DNA from: Chlorogloea sp. CCALA 695
Lineage (GTDB): Bacteria > Cyanobacteriota > Cyanobacteriia > Cyanobacteriales > Chroococcidiopsidaceae
Length of the DNA stretch: 64,000 bases
NCBI RefSeq assembly: GCF_003003885.1
Contig: NZ_PVWN01000012.1
Location: 1 to 64,000 of the forward strand
Reading direction: 5' to 3'
Shown here: positions 24,733 through 46,083 of the stretch, one piece after another
Layout of the letters: every line of letters begins with the position of its first letter
Position numbering within the stretch: the first letter of the stretch is position 1
Position numbers and translations under genes: made by a program
Notes under the pieces: model-generated
What the model saw: only the letters and a program-made list of their open reading frames with translations
Database searches by the model: none
What the model was told of the DNA's origin: nothing

Positions 24733-25176
24733 TTATCCAAATTTTTTCTTAGACGCTGAAATTTTGTTTAGCTTATCGTGAATCTCTTGTAAACAAAGGG
24801 GAATGACAGGCTGACCTCGATCTAGGAAGGCGATCGCCTTTTCCCTTTCAAACTCCTCCACCCCTAAGTCCTTGGTTTCTCTATCCCAAACCAAGATAAA
24901 ACGCTTCTGCACCACTGGATCGGAAAAATCCGGTACTTTTTGCTTCACAGCCTGCAATGCCTTAGCCGCTACCTCAAAACTCAACCCCACCGATAGGCAA
25001 TATTCCATTACTGCCAACTCAGTCAACTCAGAACGAGAGTAATAAATACTGCGTCCTGTTCCAGTGGCACTGATCGGAGGTACAACAACCCCCCTTTCCC
25101 GCCAATACTGCAATTGGCGCAAACTACACCCTGTAATCTCCGCCGCTTCCTTACTGCTAAAAAATGTTTCTGACAT
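24733..25176 (-). CDS. cvkR: MerR-type CvkR-like repressor of the CAST
   Basis: A 147-residue MerR-superfamily regulator: winged-helix start SSKEAAEITGCSLRQLQYWRERGV (described here by its motif at residues 7-30), then a short effector/dimer domain. Its place, divergent from cas12k with 68 bp between, and its sequence match CvkR (Alr3614 of Anabaena PCC 7120), which represses cas12k and tnsB. I did not find an exact copy of the published CvkR operator in the gap, only partial half-sites such as ACACTAATGT near 25228. Confidence 0.83.
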   Translation of the reverse strand: MSETFFSSKEAAEITGCSLRQLQYWRERGVVVPPISATGTGRSIYYSRSELTELAVMEYCLSVGLSFEVAAKALQAVKQKVPDFSDPVVQKRFILVWDRETKDLGVEEFEREKAIAFLDRGQPVIPLCLQEIHDKLNKISASKKKFG

Positions 25177-25244: not shown

Positions 25245-27095
25245 ATGAGCCAGATTACCATTCAGTGTCGTTTGATTACAAGTGAATCAACCCGCCATCA
25301 TCTCTGGAAATTAATGGCAGACCTTAACACGCCATTAATTAACGAATTACTGACACAAATGGCTCAACATCCTGAGTTTGAAACCTGGAGAAAAAAGGGT
25401 AAGCTTCCAGGTGGTACAGTTAATCAGCTATGTCAACCTCTTAAAACTGACTCTCGCTTCAATAATCAACCAGGGCGGTTTTATAAAAGTGCAATTACCG
25501 TCGTTGAGTACATCTATAAATCTTGGTTTAAAATTCAGCAACGCTTAGAACAAAAGCTAAAAGGGCAAACTCGTTGGTTAGAAATGCTCAAAAGTGATGA
25601 AGAATTAACCACAGAAAGTAATGCTTCTCTAGAAACAATTTGCACCAACGCTGCCCAACTCCTTAGCGCCCTATCCCCTGAAGAGGGCAGTATTTCTAAA
25701 AGACTTTAGCAAGCATACAACGACACAGACGACCTCCTGACTCGCTGTGTTATCTGCTACTTACTCAAAAATGGTAGTAAAATTCCTAAAAAACTCGAAG
25801 AAAACTTAGAAAAATTTGGTTTACACCGTCGCCAAGCTGAAATTAAGATTGAGCGAATAAAAGAGCAACTAGAAAGTCGTATCCCCAACGGTCGAGATTT
25901 AACAAGAAAAAACTGGTTAGATACATTAGAACTCGCATCTACAACTGCCCCCACAGATGAATCAGAAGCTAAATCTTGGAAAGATGCACTGTCGACTGAA
26001 TCAAAACTTCTTCCCTTCCCCGTAGCTTACGAAACTAACGAAGATTTAACTTGGAGTAAAAACGAAAAAGACCGCCTTTGCGTTCAATTTAATGGTTTAA
26101 GCAAGCATATATTTCAAATCTATTGCGACCAACGCCAACTGGAATGGTTTAAACGCTTTTACGAAGACCAAGAAATTAAAAAAGCTAGCAAAAATGAATA
26201 CTCCAGTGGTCTTTTTACCTTGCGTTCAGGACGAATTGCTTGGCAAGAGGGTACAGAGAAAGGAGAACTTTGGAACATTCATCACCTCATCCTCTACTGC
26301 GCTGTAGACACCCGTTTATGGACGGCTGAAGGTACAGAACAAGTTCGTCAAGAAAAAGCAGAAGACATCGCCAAAACCCTTACCAACATGAATAAAAAAG
26401 GTGATATCAATGATAAACAGCAAGCCTTTATCCGTCGTAAACAATCAACCCTAGCCCGACTTGACAACCCCTTTCCCCGTCCTAGCAAACCCTTCTATCA
26501 AGGGCAGCCTCATATTCTTGTAGGTGTGGCATTAGGATTAGATAAACCTGCTACCGTAGCAGTTGTTGATGGACTAGCAAGCAAAGAAATCACTTATCGG
26601 AGTGTCAAACAATTACTTGGAGATAATTACGAACTCTTAAACAAACAGCGCCAGCTTAAACAAAGGCAATCTCACCAACGCCACAAAGCTCAAAGTGGCG
26701 GAAGATTCAATCAATTTAGAGATTCCCAATTAGGTGAATATGTAGATCGTTTATTAGCCAAAGCTATTATCGCCTTTGCTCAAACCTATCACGCAGGTAG
26801 TATTGTTTTACCAAAACTGGGTGATATGCGCGAGTTAGTCCAAAGTGAGGTTCAAGCCAGGGCAGAACAAAAAATTCCAGGTTATCTTGAAGGACAGAAA
26901 AAATACGCCAAGCAGTACAGGGTAAGCATCCATCAATGGAGCTACGGCAGATTAATCGATAATATCAAAGCTCAAGCTGCCAAATTAAATCTTGTCGTTG
27001 AAGAATGCCAACAATCCATCCGAGGAAGTCCCCAAGAAAAAGCCAAAGAAATGGCAATTTCTGCCTATCGCGATCGCTCTATTAGCAAAACTTAA
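25245..27095 (+). pseudogene. cas12k: cas12k with one internal nonsense codon, element 1
   Basis: The reading frame encodes 616 codons of Cas12k, the naturally nuclease-dead type V-K effector that binds tracrRNA-crRNA and recruits TnsC/TniQ. A single in-frame TAG at 25707-25709 (codon 155) breaks it; everything downstream stays in the same frame to 27095. Against the element 2 copy (SVFKVLLNTYEET) the TAG (SISKRL-stop-QAYNDT) replaces a leucine, so one base change explains it. The C-terminal RuvC-like region (GVALGLDKPATVAVVDG) is preserved. The lesion is recent, a sequencing error, or suppressed; no frame change is seen. Confidence 0.9.
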
Positions 27096-28295: not shown

Positions 28296-28309
28296 GGTAC
28301 ATTAGTACC
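28296..28309. promoter_or_regulatory. Palindrome upstream of element 2 tnsB, possible operator
   Basis: GGTAC (28296-28300) and GTACC (28305-28309) flank ATTA, about 15-40 bp before the tnsB start and next to a GATAAT -10-like box (28289). The position suits a repressor site. The binding protein is unknown; the nearby sequence is not an exact CvkR operator. Confidence 0.4.
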
Positions 28310-28338
28310 TTAATTATTTACGAGTGGATTTCACTCTA

Positions 28339-30204
28339 ATGGCAGACGAAGAATTTGAACTTACTGAAGAATTGACACAAGTTCCGGACAATATTTTACT
28401 TGACAAGAGAAATTTTGTCGTAGACCCATCGCAAATTATTCTGGAAACTTCGGATAGGCAAAAACTGACATTTAATCTTATCCAGTGGCTTGCTGAATCA
28501 CCTAATCGCACTATTAAGTCTCAGAGAAAGCAGGCTGTTGCAGATACCCTTAATGTTTCTACCCGCCAGGTGGAACGTCTCCTCAAGCAATACGATGAAG
28601 ACAGGTTAATAGAGACAGCAGGGATAGAACGAGCAGATAAGGGAAAATATCGAGTTAGTAAATATTGGCAAGACTTCATTAAAACAATTTACGAAAAAAG
28701 TCTTAAAGATAAACATCCAATATCGCCAGCATCAATAGTGCGGGAACTGAAGCGACACGCGATTGTTGACCTTGGGCTTAAGCCAGGAGATTTTCCTCAT
28801 CAAGCTACCGTTTATAGAATTTTAGATCCTTTAATGGAGCAACATAAACGCAAGACAAAGGTTAGAAACCCAGGTTCGGGATCTTGGATGACAGTTGTAA
28901 CACGAGAGGGTCAGCTACTGAAGGCTGACTTCAGTAACCAAATTATCCAATGCGACCATACTAAGCTGGATATTCGCATAGTTGATATTCATGGCAGTTT
29001 ATTGTCTGACCGTCCTTGGTTAACTACTATTGTAGATACTTATTCAAGTTGTGTTGTCGGTTTCCGCTTATGGATCAAACAACCAGGTTCTACAGAGGTA
29101 GCTCTCGCTTTAAGACACGCTATTCTGCCCAAACACTATCCTGACGACTATCAGCTAAATAAAGCTTGGGAAATATGGGGACCTCCTTTTCAATATTTTT
29201 TCACTGATGGGGGAAAAGATTTTCGCTCAAAACATCTAAAAGCAATTGGCAAGAAACTAGGATTTCAGTGCGAATTGCGCGATCGCCCACCCGAAGGTGG
29301 TATTGTAGAGCGGATTTTTAAAACGATCAATACTCAAGTTCTCAAAGACCTACCTGGTTATACAGGGGCAAATGTTCAGGAACGCCCCGAAAATGCAGAG
29401 AAAGAAGCCTGTTTGAAAATACAGGATTTAGACAGAATTTTAGCTAGTTTCTTTTGTGACATTTATAACCACGAGCCTTATCCTAAGCAGCCTTGCGATA
29501 CGAGATGTGAACGCTGGTTCAAAGGTATGGGAGGAAAACTGCCTCGGATTTTGGATGAGCGAGAATTAGATATCTGTTTGATGAAAGAAGCGCAACGAGT
29601 TGTTCAAGCTCATGGCTCTATACAGTTTGAGAACCTAATTTATCGAGGAGAATCACTCAAGGCATATAGAGGTGAATATGTGACGCTGAGATACGACCCC
29701 GACCATATCCTGACTTTATATGTCTACAGTTGCGAAACTGATGATGGTGTAGAAAATTTCTTGGACTATGCTCATGCAGTAAACATGGACACCCATGACC
29801 TGAGTGTAGAAGAATTAAAAGCCCTCAATAAAGAGCGCAGTAAAGCGCGTAGGGAGCATTTTAATTATGATGCCTTATTAGCATTGGGTAAACGGAAGGA
29901 ACTTGTAGAAGAATGTAAAGAGGATAAGAAGGAAAAAAGACGGTTAGAGCAAAAGCGTCTTCGTTCTACATCCAAGAAAAGCTCAAATGTTATTGAGCTA
30001 CGCAAAATTAGAGCTTCAACTTCTTTAAAGAAAGATGATCGTCAGGAAGTTTTACCTGAGAGAGTTGGCAGGGAAGAAATTAAGATTGAGAGGATAGAAC
30101 CGCAACTACAGGAAGACATTTCAGTGCAAACTGATACTCAAGAAGAGCAAAGACATAAGTTAGTTGTCTCTAATCGTCAAAAAAACTTGAAAAAAATTTG
30201 GTAA
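28339..30204 (+). CDS. tnsB: TnsB transposase, element 2
   Basis: A DDE transposase of about 621 residues, the same family as the element 1 copy but divergent. Catalytic residues are Asp206 (IQCDHTKLD), Asp290 (FTDGGKDFR) and Glu324 (GGIVERIFK). The tail (residues 520-620) is highly charged and longer than in element 1. A GTG at 28324 could add five residues; I prefer the ATG at 28339. All catalytic residues are present. Confidence 0.94.
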   Translation: MADEEFELTEELTQVPDNILLDKRNFVVDPSQIILETSDRQKLTFNLIQWLAESPNRTIKSQRKQAVADTLNVSTRQVERLLKQYDEDRLIETAGIERADKGKYRVSKYWQDFIKTIYEKSLKDKHPISPASIVRELKRHAIVDLGLKPGDFPHQATVYRILDPLMEQHKRKTKVRNPGSGSWMTVVTREGQLLKADFSNQIIQCDHTKLDIRIVDIHGSLLSDRPWLTTIVDTYSSCVVGFRLWIKQPGSTEVALALRHAILPKHYPDDYQLNKAWEIWGPPFQYFFTDGGKDFRSKHLKAIGKKLGFQCELRDRPPEGGIVERIFKTINTQVLKDLPGYTGANVQERPENAEKEACLKIQDLDRILASFFCDIYNHEPYPKQPCDTRCERWFKGMGGKLPRILDERELDICLMKEAQRVVQAHGSIQFENLIYRGESLKAYRGEYVTLRYDPDHILTLYVYSCETDDGVENFLDYAHAVNMDTHDLSVEELKALNKERSKARREHFNYDALLALGKRKELVEECKEDKKEKRRLEQKRLRSTSKKSSNVIELRKIRASTSLKKDDRQEVLPERVGREEIKIERIEPQLQEDISVQTDTQEEQRHKLVVSNRQKNLKKIW

Positions 30205-35756: not shown

Positions 35757-36275
35757 TTACGCAGCTTTAGTAGGTTCATCTTTGGCACGCCTGTGAAAAT
35801 CCTTTATCTCAATCGTCGTGGATTTTCCTGCTACCTCCCAAATCTCTTCTATAACGTCTTGAAGCGCTGGAATGACTATAAGAGTATATTGACCAATACC
35901 TTTTCTATGTTTGCCAGCAACTTTTAAAACTGAAATTTGCTTGCCGAAGTCTGACCAGTTGCGTTCTATCCAGAAAACTTCGTCATCGACGACGATTAGT
36001 TGCTTATCCCTGAGCTTTTTATCGAATTGGCATTTCTCAAAAAAGTCAATAACCTTTCTAATCACCTGCAATGACGTTTCCTTTCTTAAATTGCGGATTG
36101 CCCTAATCTCCAGCAATTGCTCCCAACTGTAGTAAACTTCGGGTTTTTTCTTTCCCTCTTTCAAAATCCTCGTCGGGACAATCAAGCCAGAGCGTTCAAG
36201 GTACTGTAGCTGGTTGGAAGTAGCTCCAGCCAACTCCATAGCTTCTCGTCTGCTGAAAGAGTCAACAACACCCAT
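35757..36275 (-). CDS. MerR-superfamily regulator, element 2
   Basis: A 172-residue protein with an N-terminal MerR-like winged helix (SRREAMELAGATSNQLQYLE) and a wing ending in YYSWEQLLEIRAIRNL. The C-terminal half is unlike element 1 CvkR. It is 7 kb from cas12k, so I do not call it CvkR; it may control the insert it sits in. It is divergent from a 42-codon gene with a strong ribosome binding site. Confidence 0.65.
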   Translation of the reverse strand: MGVVDSFSRREAMELAGATSNQLQYLERSGLIVPTRILKEGKKKPEVYYSWEQLLEIRAIRNLRKETSLQVIRKVIDFFEKCQFDKKLRDKQLIVVDDEVFWIERNWSDFGKQISVLKVAGKHRKGIGQYTLIVIPALQDVIEEIWEVAGKSTTIEIKDFHRRAKDEPTKAA

Positions 36276-43125: not shown

Positions 43126-43299
43126 TTAACTCCTCTGCAACTTTCCACCAGCAGGGGAATCTTTTTTTTGCAACCAATCTCTAATCGCCTCCTCCAGAGC
43201 CGCAGTTTGCGTCACTTCCAGACGCGCACAAGCGATTTCAAATGCGATTTTTAAGTCTTTAGGGACTCTCCCCCGAACCTCTCTAGTTTCTTCTGCCAT
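43126..43299 (-). CDS. Small ribbon-helix-helix regulator next to cas12k
   Basis: A 57-residue protein, MAEETREVRGRVPKDLKIAF at its start, with the Arc/CopG-type pattern: a beta strand (EVRGRVP), then two helices (KDLKIAFEIACARLEV, TQTAALEEAIRDWLQ). It is divergent from cas12k and takes the place that CvkR holds in element 1. It probably represses cas12k through the direct repeats at 43361-43390. Too short for an ORF list with a 60-residue cutoff, but well supported by domain and position. Confidence 0.75.
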   Translation of the reverse strand: MAEETREVRGRVPKDLKIAFEIACARLEVTQTAALEEAIRDWLQKKDSPAGGKLQRS

Positions 43300-43360
43300 C
43301 CTAATTTGAAGTCAAAGCTTGCGGCTTTTATTTTTGCACAGCCTTTCGGCAAAAAAACAT

Positions 43361-43396
43361 TTGCGTCATTGCGCTGTTGCGTCATTGCGCTATAAT
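43361..43396 (+). promoter_or_regulatory. cas12k promoter overlapped by tandem 14-bp repeats
   Basis: TTGCGTCATTGCGC occurs twice (43361-43374 and 43377-43390), 16 bp apart, and runs into a perfect -10 TATAAT (43391-43396). The repeats cover the -35 region. Direct repeats at such spacing are typical operators for ribbon-helix-helix repressors, and the RHH gene is divergent from here. Confidence 0.7.
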
Positions 43397-43461
43397 AGAG
43401 TAAGTAAGAAAACACTTAGAAACCCTGTCAGTTTCATCAAATCTATAAAGCTGAGGACACC

Positions 43462-45369
43462 ATGAGCGTTATTACAATTCAATGTCGCTTGGTTGCTGAA
43501 GAAGACTTCCTTCGTCAATTGTGGGAACTGATGGCTGAAAAAAATACACCACTAATCAATGAATTATTGGCACAGTTAGGAAAACACCCAGAACTTGAAA
43601 CTTGGCTAGAAAAAGGCAAAATACCTACTGAATTACTCAAAGCACTTGGTAACGCCCTCAAAACTCAAGAACCTTTTGCTGGACAGCCTGGACGTTTTTA
43701 CACCTCAGCAATTGCTCTAGTGAATTATGTATATAAATCCTGGTTCGCGTTACAAAAACGAAGAAAGTACCAAATAGAAGGGAAAGAGCGTTGGCTGAAA
43801 ATGCTCAAAAGTGATCTAGACCTGGAACAAGAAAGTCAGTGTAGCTTAGATGTAATTCGTATTAAAGCCACCGAACTTCTTACCAAATTTACCCCCCAGT
43901 TTGATACCAATAACAAACAGAGAAAAGGTAAAAAAAATAAGAAAGCCTCAAAAACGCAAAAACCCTCGGTTTTTAAAGTCCTATTAAACACTTACGAAGA
44001 AACACAATGCCTTTTGACTCGTTGCGCCCTTGCATATCTGCTCAAAAATAACTGTCAAATCAGTGAACTTAATGAAAATCTGGAAGAGTTTACTAGAAAT
44101 AGACGTAAAAAGGAAATAGAAATTGAGCGATTAAAAGACCAACTCCAAAGTCGGATACCTAAAGGTAGAGATTTGAAAGGGGAAGAGTGGTTAAAAATTT
44201 TAAAAATTGCTACAGCCAATGTAGCTCAAGATGAAAATGAGGCAAAAGCTTGGCAAGCAGCACTTTTAAGAAAAACTAAAAATGTGCCATTTCCTGTGGA
44301 TTACGAATCTAACGAAGATATGACATGGTTGAAGAATGATAAAAATCGTCTTTTTGTTCGGTTCAATGGCTTGGGAAAACTTACTTTTGAGATTTACTGT
44401 GATAAGCGTCATTTGCCCTACTTCCAACGATTTTTAGAGGATCAAGAAATTAAACGCAATAGTAAAAATCAATACTCTAGTAGTTTATTTACTCTACGTT
44501 CAGCAAGAATTTCTTGGTTGCCAGGTAAAGAAAAAGGTGAAGCTTGGAAAGTAAATCAGCTAAATCTTTACTGCTCTTTAGATACGCGGATGTGGACTAC
44601 TGAAGGAACCATACAGGTAGTTGAGGAGAAAGTCATGGCAATTACTGAAACCTTAACCAAGACAAAACAGAAAGACGACCTCAATCATAAACAGCAAGCT
44701 TTTATTACTCGTCAGCAATCAACTCTAAACCGAATTACTAATCCCTTTCCTCGTCCCTGCAAGCCTACTTACCAAGGCAAACCATCAATACTTCTTGGCG
44801 TTAGTTTTGGACTAGATAAACCTGCAACGGTAGCTGTGGTAGATGCTGCTAACAAAAAAGTTTTGGCATATCGCAGCACTAAACAATTACTGGGAAAAAA
44901 TTACAATCTCCTAAATCGTCAGCGACAACAACAGCAACGCCTATCTCATGAACGTCATATAGCTCAGAAACAGAATGCGCCGAACTCCTTTGGTGAGTCA
45001 GAGTTAGGGCAATATGTGGATAGATTGTTGGCAGATGCAATTATTGCGATCGCCAAAACTTACCAAGTGGGCAACATTGTTTTACCAAAACTCCGTTATA
45101 TGCGTGAGCAAATCAGCAGTGAAATTCAATCCAGAGCAGAGAAAAAGTGTCCTGGTTTCAAGGAAGCTCAACAAAAATACGCCCAAGAATATCGGATTAG
45201 CGTTCATCGCTGGAGTTACGGACGATTAGTTGAAAGCATCAAATCTCAAGCTGCAAAGGCTGGAATTTCTACTGAAATTGTGACATTGCTAACCAGAGGT
45301 AGTCCAGAAGAAAAAGCACGAGATTTAGCCGTCTTTGCTTACCAAGAACGTCAAGCTGCACTAATTTAG
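43462..45369 (+). CDS. cas12k: Cas12k effector, element 2
   Basis: An intact 635-residue Cas12k, the RNA-guided but nuclease-dead effector that directs the transposon. It starts MSVITIQCRL like the element 1 copy and continues without a stop. RuvC-like segments are recognisable (LLGVSFGLDKPATVAVVDAA near residue 450; IVLPKLRYMREQISSE; the C-terminal RGSPEEKARDLAVFAYQ) but lack the usual catalytic set, as known for Cas12k. It may serve element 1 in trans, though the tracrRNAs differ. Confidence 0.96.
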   Translation: MSVITIQCRLVAEEDFLRQLWELMAEKNTPLINELLAQLGKHPELETWLEKGKIPTELLKALGNALKTQEPFAGQPGRFYTSAIALVNYVYKSWFALQKRRKYQIEGKERWLKMLKSDLDLEQESQCSLDVIRIKATELLTKFTPQFDTNNKQRKGKKNKKASKTQKPSVFKVLLNTYEETQCLLTRCALAYLLKNNCQISELNENLEEFTRNRRKKEIEIERLKDQLQSRIPKGRDLKGEEWLKILKIATANVAQDENEAKAWQAALLRKTKNVPFPVDYESNEDMTWLKNDKNRLFVRFNGLGKLTFEIYCDKRHLPYFQRFLEDQEIKRNSKNQYSSSLFTLRSARISWLPGKEKGEAWKVNQLNLYCSLDTRMWTTEGTIQVVEEKVMAITETLTKTKQKDDLNHKQQAFITRQQSTLNRITNPFPRPCKPTYQGKPSILLGVSFGLDKPATVAVVDAANKKVLAYRSTKQLLGKNYNLLNRQRQQQQRLSHERHIAQKQNAPNSFGESELGQYVDRLLADAIIAIAKTYQVGNIVLPKLRYMREQISSEIQSRAEKKCPGFKEAQQKYAQEYRISVHRWSYGRLVESIKSQAAKAGISTEIVTLLTRGSPEEKARDLAVFAYQERQAALI

Positions 45370-45710: not shown

Positions 45711-45849
45711 GAATCCCTTGTCCAGTATTGGTTTGATTCTTTGGAGGAGTGATGAATCTCCTCACATTAAAGCAGAAAAGCGAGTATTTTGACAGGGTTG
45801 CCAAAATTGCATCTGGAACCCTGTACTAACAAGGGGTCAGACGGGTGCG

Positions 45850-46083
45850 GTTTCAAAGACCATCCCGGCTGGAGGTAAGTTGAAAGCTTAGGGTTGAAGT
45901 CGGGCGATCGTACATCTTTTGAGTTTCAAAGACCATCCCGGCTGGAGGTAAGTTGAAAGTGACAGTAGCCTAAAAATACACGCTTGCCATTACTGGTTTC
46001 AAAGACCATCCCGGCTGGAGGTAAGTTGAAAGAGGCGTGAGTGGTGAGGTTCAAAAACTATCCGACCAGGGGTATGTTAGAAG
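45850..46083 (+). CRISPR. CRISPR array, element 2
   Basis: Three identical 37-nt repeats (45850-45886, 45923-45959, 45996-46032), each beginning GTTTCAAAGACCATCCCGGC and ending GTTGAAAG, separated by 36-nt spacers. A 16-nt spacer then leads to a degenerate repeat (46049-46083, GTTCAAAAACTATCC...TTAGAAG). No adaptation genes. Repeats differ in sequence from those of element 1. Confidence 0.93.

Follow-up and report, generated by a model that had tools for sequence, protein, structure and literature searches.

Two V-K elements lie in the window, by which we mean the whole stretch of 64,000 nucleotides (64 kb) analysed here, and they carry different regulator genes beside cas12k. The initial annotation took these genes, one of MerR type and one encoding a 57-residue ribbon-helix-helix (RHH) protein, for unrelated repressors of the same control step, which raises the question of what the RHH protein is, which DNA it would read and how far its control would match that of CvkR. 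Overall, the observation is confirmed, the interpretation is known in outline, and a likely operator, an array of 8-bp repeats (octads), was not found in the literature covered, which includes parts of the main text of Ziemann et al. 2023 (PMC9938897).

An Arc_1-type gene in the position of CvkR

43126–43299, minus strand: arc_1-type RHH gene, 57 aa (ORF; PF21432, E 3.2e-15; 2KEL, E 1.5e-4)
43361–43368, plus strand: octad 1, TTGCGTCA (window sequence, relatives)
43369–43376, plus strand: octad 2, TTGCGCTG (window sequence, relatives)
43377–43384, plus strand: octad 3, TTGCGTCA (window sequence, repeat search)
43385–43392, plus strand: octad 4, TTGCGCTA, sharing 2 bases with the −10 box (sequence)
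43391–43396, plus strand: −10-like box TATAAT of cas12k (sequence)
43453–43457, plus strand: Shine-Dalgarno-like GAGGA ahead of the cas12k ATG (sequence)
43462–45369, plus strand: cas12k of element 2, intact frame, 635 aa (NF038191 V_Cas12k, E 4.5e-279)
45849–46032, plus strand: CRISPR repeats of element 2, three 38-nt copies at a spacing of 73 (repeat search)
24733–25176, minus strand: CvkR-like MerR gene of element 1, for comparison (MerR hit; 7XN2)

In element 2, arc_1 (43299–43126, minus strand) and cas12k (43462–45369, plus strand) are divergent, with the repeats in the spacer between them. The 57-aa protein matches PF21432 (56B_RHH) at E 3.2e-15, above the cut-off, and the only solved structure that it matches at E ≤ 10 is 2KEL (E 1.5e-4, residues 12–47); it has no match to RHH_5, the Arc_2 type, at E ≤ 1 and lacks the MerR hit found for the element 1 protein. 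The best solved match of the latter is 7XN2 (Alr3614/CvkR, E 3e-31). Both gene assignments of the initial annotation are therefore borne out, as is the statement that an RHH-family gene of element 2 occupies the spot held by CvkR in element 1. The RHH assignment is backed by the sequence profiles (PF21432, 2KEL); an AlphaFold2 model of the monomer is a single long helix with no strand (mean pLDDT 75, pTM 0.39) and does not support the RHH fold. Across 22 aligned Arc_1 proteins, with the protein of locus L116 excluded, the strand residues R6, E7, R9, G10, P13 and K14 are invariant, and R11 is replaced by K in L128.

In the parts covered, Ziemann et al. 2023 (PMC9938897) describe three regulator types divergent from V-K cas12k: CvkR, which is of MerR type, and the RHH types Arc_1 and Arc_2, with 22 and 11 genes, respectively. 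Arc_1 is described there as a small RHH-family gene of 53–72 aa, upstream of cas12k in reverse orientation, recognised by a cl10310/PHA01623 domain or by BLAST at E ≤ 1e-20 to the published Arc_1 set. The gene studied here is likewise small (57 aa) and lies upstream of cas12k in reverse orientation, and by length, RHH family and orientation it fits Arc_1. It shares its position, and its predicted role in cas12k repression, with CvkR (Alr3614) of AnCAST as presented in those parts. That unrelated repressors operate at V-K cas12k is already known from the same source (PMC9938897), so this part of the earlier interpretation stands, though as a published one; the "same control step" holds for cas12k only, where repression by the RHH protein is predicted.

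An in-frame TAG interrupts the cas12k gene of element 1 (25245–27095), which is probably inactive; the CvkR gene beside it is open.

Four direct octads run into the cas12k −10 box

The initial annotation described two 14-bp units running into TATAAT over the cas12k promoter. Their placement is correct, but the units are not: the region 43361–43392 is made up of four 8-bp octads (TTGCGNNN), in the order TTGCGTCA TTGCGCTG TTGCGTCA TTGCGCTA, which run into TATAAT at 43391–43396. A repeat search returned TTGCGTCATTGCGCT twice (15 nt), at 43361 and 43377 with a spacing of 16, and because each 15-nt copy consists of two TTGCG cores 8 bp apart, the repeat unit is the octad, at an 8-bp pitch.

Across promoters, the octad consensus is TTGCGNNA. 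Exact TTGCG occurs in 79 of 107 octads from the 25 loci that could be placed in register; the other 28 read TTACG (11), TTAAG (5), TTGAG (4), TTTAG (4) or one of four singles, and 15 of these 28 differ by a single change at position 3 or 4. Locus L114, whose box lies outside the search range, is absent from this table and by eye has two octads followed by TATAAC. Within exact octads, A predominates at position 8 and positions 6–7 are variable (CT, TC, GC, GT and others). Over the first three octads of 17 distinct first-clade arrays, entropy averages 1.17 bits at positions 6–7 versus 0.18 bits elsewhere, a contrast that was the highest of eight phases and was equalled in 2 of 200,000 label permutations, the two positions having been picked post hoc, after inspection of the data.

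Array size changes by whole octads, from two in L114 through four in most first-clade loci to five in L103, and arrays of 2, 4 and 5 units all keep the 8-bp pitch. The register of the last octad against the −10 box is constant within each clade, with one extra base of offset in the second, whose arrays include octads with two changes (TTAAG, TTTAG); in L115, only two octads are adjacent. An extra TTGCG at 43319, in the arc_1 leader, was considered as an operator and rejected: most first-clade loci have it, but the second clade does not.

TTGCGC of octad 2, separated from TATAAT by a 16-bp spacer, could be a weak −35 element; a simple promoter scan gave no sigma-70 match at the scan threshold. 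Downstream, GAGGA precedes the cas12k ATG, so cas12k of element 2 probably has a leader, unlike cas12k of AnCAST, which is leaderless according to the covered parts of Ziemann et al. 2023 (PMC9938897). By eye, a Shine-Dalgarno-like GAGGA is present in many, not all, first-clade relatives.

Octads accompany Arc_1 across cyanobacteria

Cas12k is present in 42 of 386 cyanobacterial genomes, from which 30 Cas12k loci were examined. The array was found at all eight Arc_1-cas12k promoters among them, where none of 200 shuffles per promoter scored as high, and at none of the remaining 22 loci, scanned on both strands. Fair negatives number 19 of these 22, as L008, L020 and L024 begin inside cas12k; 15 of the 16 loci flagged for CvkR are among the 19, and L025 is MerR-like by eye but unflagged.

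Scanning the Arc_1 alignment against a collection with one genome per species yielded 33 loci. Our script detected the array in 27 of them and missed none of the 21 in which a cas12k start is directly divergent; one locus scored positive, L129, is weak, with one exact core and one GTGCG. The script-negative loci are L119, L124, L128, L130, L131 and L132. L131 and L132 are Arc_1 gene fragments and L119 has only one octad; inspection by eye showed two exact octads 16 bp apart in L124 and degenerate cores in L128 and L130.

Pooling both searches, at least two octads at 8-bp pitch are present in all 26 distinct promoters where Arc_1 directly faces a cas12k start and in none of the 19 that have another regulator or no regulator. 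The 26 comprise the 21 above, three of which are, by length, the same contigs as L003, L005 and L006, plus L001, L002, L004, L007 and L009, and all 26 intergenic sequences are distinct. The annotation's proposed check, conservation of the RHH gene and the repeats in relatives of element 2, thus came out in its favour on both counts. Conservation alone is weak evidence in close relatives, because much of the intergenic region is kept there. Octads are also kept beside Arc_1 in L105, L110 and L127, 10-kb loci with no cas12k detected, which indicates that they follow the regulator.

In L127–L130, Arc_1 homologues (71–80% identical) lie opposite other small genes, including an HTH gene, and octads, exact or degenerate, lie between the two. 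The facing genes include one of HNH type in L127 and L128, and in L128 a cas12k relative follows 2.3 kb further along.

Specificity of the octad pattern in genomes

In the 64-kb window, TTGCGN3TTGCG has three overlapping matches, all in the array, against 0.14 expected, and in the 5.2-Mb genome to which the window belongs the three-octad pattern has two overlapping matches, both in this array. Across the collection, TTGCGN3TTGCGN3TTGCG occurs in 43 of 386 genomes, with dozens of copies in some; nearly all dispersed triples, among the matches listed, are of the TTGCG-NCT form, and these octamers are a real confounder. When the octads were required to end in A, the triple was matched five times, in 4 of 386 genomes; this pattern misses any array with an imperfect octad, the window's own included. 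Four of the five lie at Arc_1-cas12k promoters (three genomes, two matches overlapping in one array) and the remaining one lies within a coding gene.

G245, G278, G131, G149 and other genomes hold dozens of dispersed TTGCG(C/T)CT-like arrays that have the operator's 5-mer and pitch. As a speculation, such arrays might be decoys for Arc_1 in these hosts.

A predicted Arc_1 operator and competing explanations

The present data establish the gene and the octads, along with the fixed pitch of the octads, the register that they keep to the −10 box and their association with Arc_1 genes. RHH repressors are DNA-binding dimers that contact DNA through a two-stranded ribbon, often cooperatively on tandem sites. 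By analogy, and given the sequence evidence above, it is highly probable that Arc_1-type repressor dimers sit side by side on the octads across the cas12k promoter and keep RNA polymerase off. The dimers would bind tandem 8-bp half-sites (consensus TTGCGNNA), one per octad, and would fill the four octads cooperatively over 32 bp. From general RHH biology, R9 and R11 of the N-terminal strand are predicted to read the G/C core, and the comparison with MetJ suggests that E7, R9 and R11 would face the DNA. Spanning the −35 region into the −10 box, the filled array would repress cas12k by occlusion.

The octads might instead mainly autoregulate arc_1, or serve an activator, with control of cas12k secondary. 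In the first clade, ∼61 nt lie between the arc_1 ATG and the start of the array upstream of it, and binding to the repressor's own promoter is described for RHH proteins, SvtR among them (PMC5569661, in the parts covered); we nevertheless regard this explanation as unlikely, since in both clades the last octad abuts or overlaps the −10 box of cas12k, so that the array covers the promoter of that gene. By eye no clear −10 box for arc_1 was seen, and the promoter scan gave no sigma-70 match at its threshold. Binding of Arc_1 to the octads is a prediction, and another DNA-binding factor might read them, Arc_1 being merely linked. This is very improbable, given that the 19 examined promoters without Arc_1 are also without octads and that octads stay with Arc_1 where cas12k was not found.

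In a third alternative, the array would be functionless debris of the dispersed TTGCG(C/T)CT octamers that are common in related genomes. The 43 of 386 genomes with TTGCGN3TTGCGN3TTGCG, and the TTGCG-NCT form of nearly all matches listed, would agree with this, but the genome of the window is without such octamers elsewhere, the operator octads end in A rather than T, their place, pitch and register are fixed in two divergent clades, and the A-ended triple is found almost nowhere but at this promoter, so that debris is scarcely credible.

With occupation of the octads by Arc_1 as the preferred reading, the array is the likely Arc_1 operator. No operator of Arc_1 or Arc_2 was found in the covered parts of the main text of PMC9938897, and none of Arc_1 in the open-licence literature on cas12k with Arc or ribbon-helix-helix regulators; within this literature the octad array is apparently new. 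To the published description of Arc_1, which gives no operator in those parts, we add the array. Both RHH regulators of V-K CASTs are without a binding site in the parts covered (PMC9938897), and the octads offer a candidate for Arc_1. Their conservation makes Arc_1 directly testable and provides a means to recognise Arc_1-controlled promoters in genomes, and the array bears on the convergence of unrelated repressors on one mobile-element promoter.

No octads at the tnsB promoters scanned

28296–28309, plus strand: palindrome GGTACATTAGTACC in the tnsB promoter, without octads (relatives, motif scan)
28324–30204, plus strand: tnsB of element 2; ATG 28339 is the more probable start

According to the parts of PMC9938897 covered, CvkR acts on both cas12k and tnsB through one motif, palindromic AnnACATnATGTnnT, and represses tnsB too. 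We scanned 33 upstream regions from 51 tnsB loci, 18 loci, mostly partial or distant matches, having been excluded before counting. Octads were found in 0 of the 33, six of which are from Arc_1 elements (both strands, one mismatch allowed), so the notion of a common control step fails beyond cas12k. The two regulators have unrelated folds, and the motifs differ as well: CvkR uses palindromic AnnACATnATGTnnT at cas12k and tnsB (PMC9938897, parts covered), whereas Arc_1 elements have tandem octads at cas12k only. The octad array marks where Arc_1 control may differ from that by CvkR, in that tnsB is left out.

A different palindrome, GGTACN4GTAC, occurs in 6 of the 33 regions, and all six belong to Arc_1 elements. 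These tnsB genes (L079–L084) are 78–100% identical. In five of the six promoters the palindrome is exactly GGTACATTAGTACC, a sequence unique to the tnsB promoter site in genomes G000, G019, G042, G048 and G072, and in five of the six elements a GAGTG...CACTC inverted repeat directly precedes the tnsB start codon. The link between palindrome and Arc_1 is not absolute, because in three Arc_1 genomes (G340, G352, G064) the closest tnsB is of another clade and without the palindrome. The strict CvkR motif was present in 5 of the 33 regions, none of them bearing the palindrome; since most non-Arc_1 tnsB regions scanned are without it, the contrast between CvkR and Arc_1 at tnsB draws on PMC9938897, in the parts covered, and these five regions. 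Full AnnACATnATGTnnT occurs nowhere in the 64-kb window, and the CvkR-type promoter of element 1 is also without the strict motif.

Tentatively, control may be split in Arc_1 elements, with an RHH octad switch for cas12k and a separate palindrome-binding factor for tnsB, and the Arc_1-octad switch may predate its pairing with cas12k, as Arc_1 homologues opposite other genes would suggest; we consider this doubtful, though possible. If control were split in this way, targeting and transposition could be induced separately. A MerR-like gene in the cargo of element 2 (35757–36275) was rejected as the tnsB regulator, as no homologue was found in seven other Arc_1 genomes.

The genome of the window contains a third V-K element, of CvkR type (L136, G000:C116, cas12k start at G000:C116:160720), in which the cas12k promoter and the tnsB promoter each carry the CvkR motif (ACATTATGT).

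Related repressors and further cas12k-facing genes

MetJ binds tandem 8-bp met boxes with graded matches to the consensus; the met box is palindromic and a corepressor is used. The octad array likewise consists of tandem 8-bp units with graded matches, but the octad is non-palindromic and Arc_1 is not known to use a ligand. Contiguous short repeats at a fixed pitch over a promoter, a trait of MetJ and omega, are present at 26 of 26 distinct promoters.

Omega, the ParB of pSM19035, binds non-palindromic short repeats that are contiguous over promoters, one dimer per repeat, and has low affinity for a single repeat (PMC9499535, in the parts covered). The contiguous, non-palindromic layout over a promoter is common to both systems, but omega repeats are 7-bp WATCACW in mixed orientation, 7–10 per site (same parts of PMC9499535), and the octads are 8-bp TTGCGNNA, all direct, with 2–5 per array. 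The closest solved sequence to the 57-aa protein, 2KEL (SIRV1 56B protein), is SvtR (PMC5569661), with which it has the Pfam family name in common. The covered parts of that paper describe SvtR as a repressor from an archaeal virus whose consensus site is an imperfect inverted repeat, in contrast to the tandem direct octads.

Other genes were seen facing cas12k. In L016 (G167:C3) this is an 88-aa Xre-type HTH gene (PF01381, E 2.5e-20), possibly a further kind of cas12k regulator besides CvkR, Arc_1 and Arc_2. In L028 (G185:C19), a 126-aa ORF with an HTH-like stretch and no confident family lies opposite cas12k.
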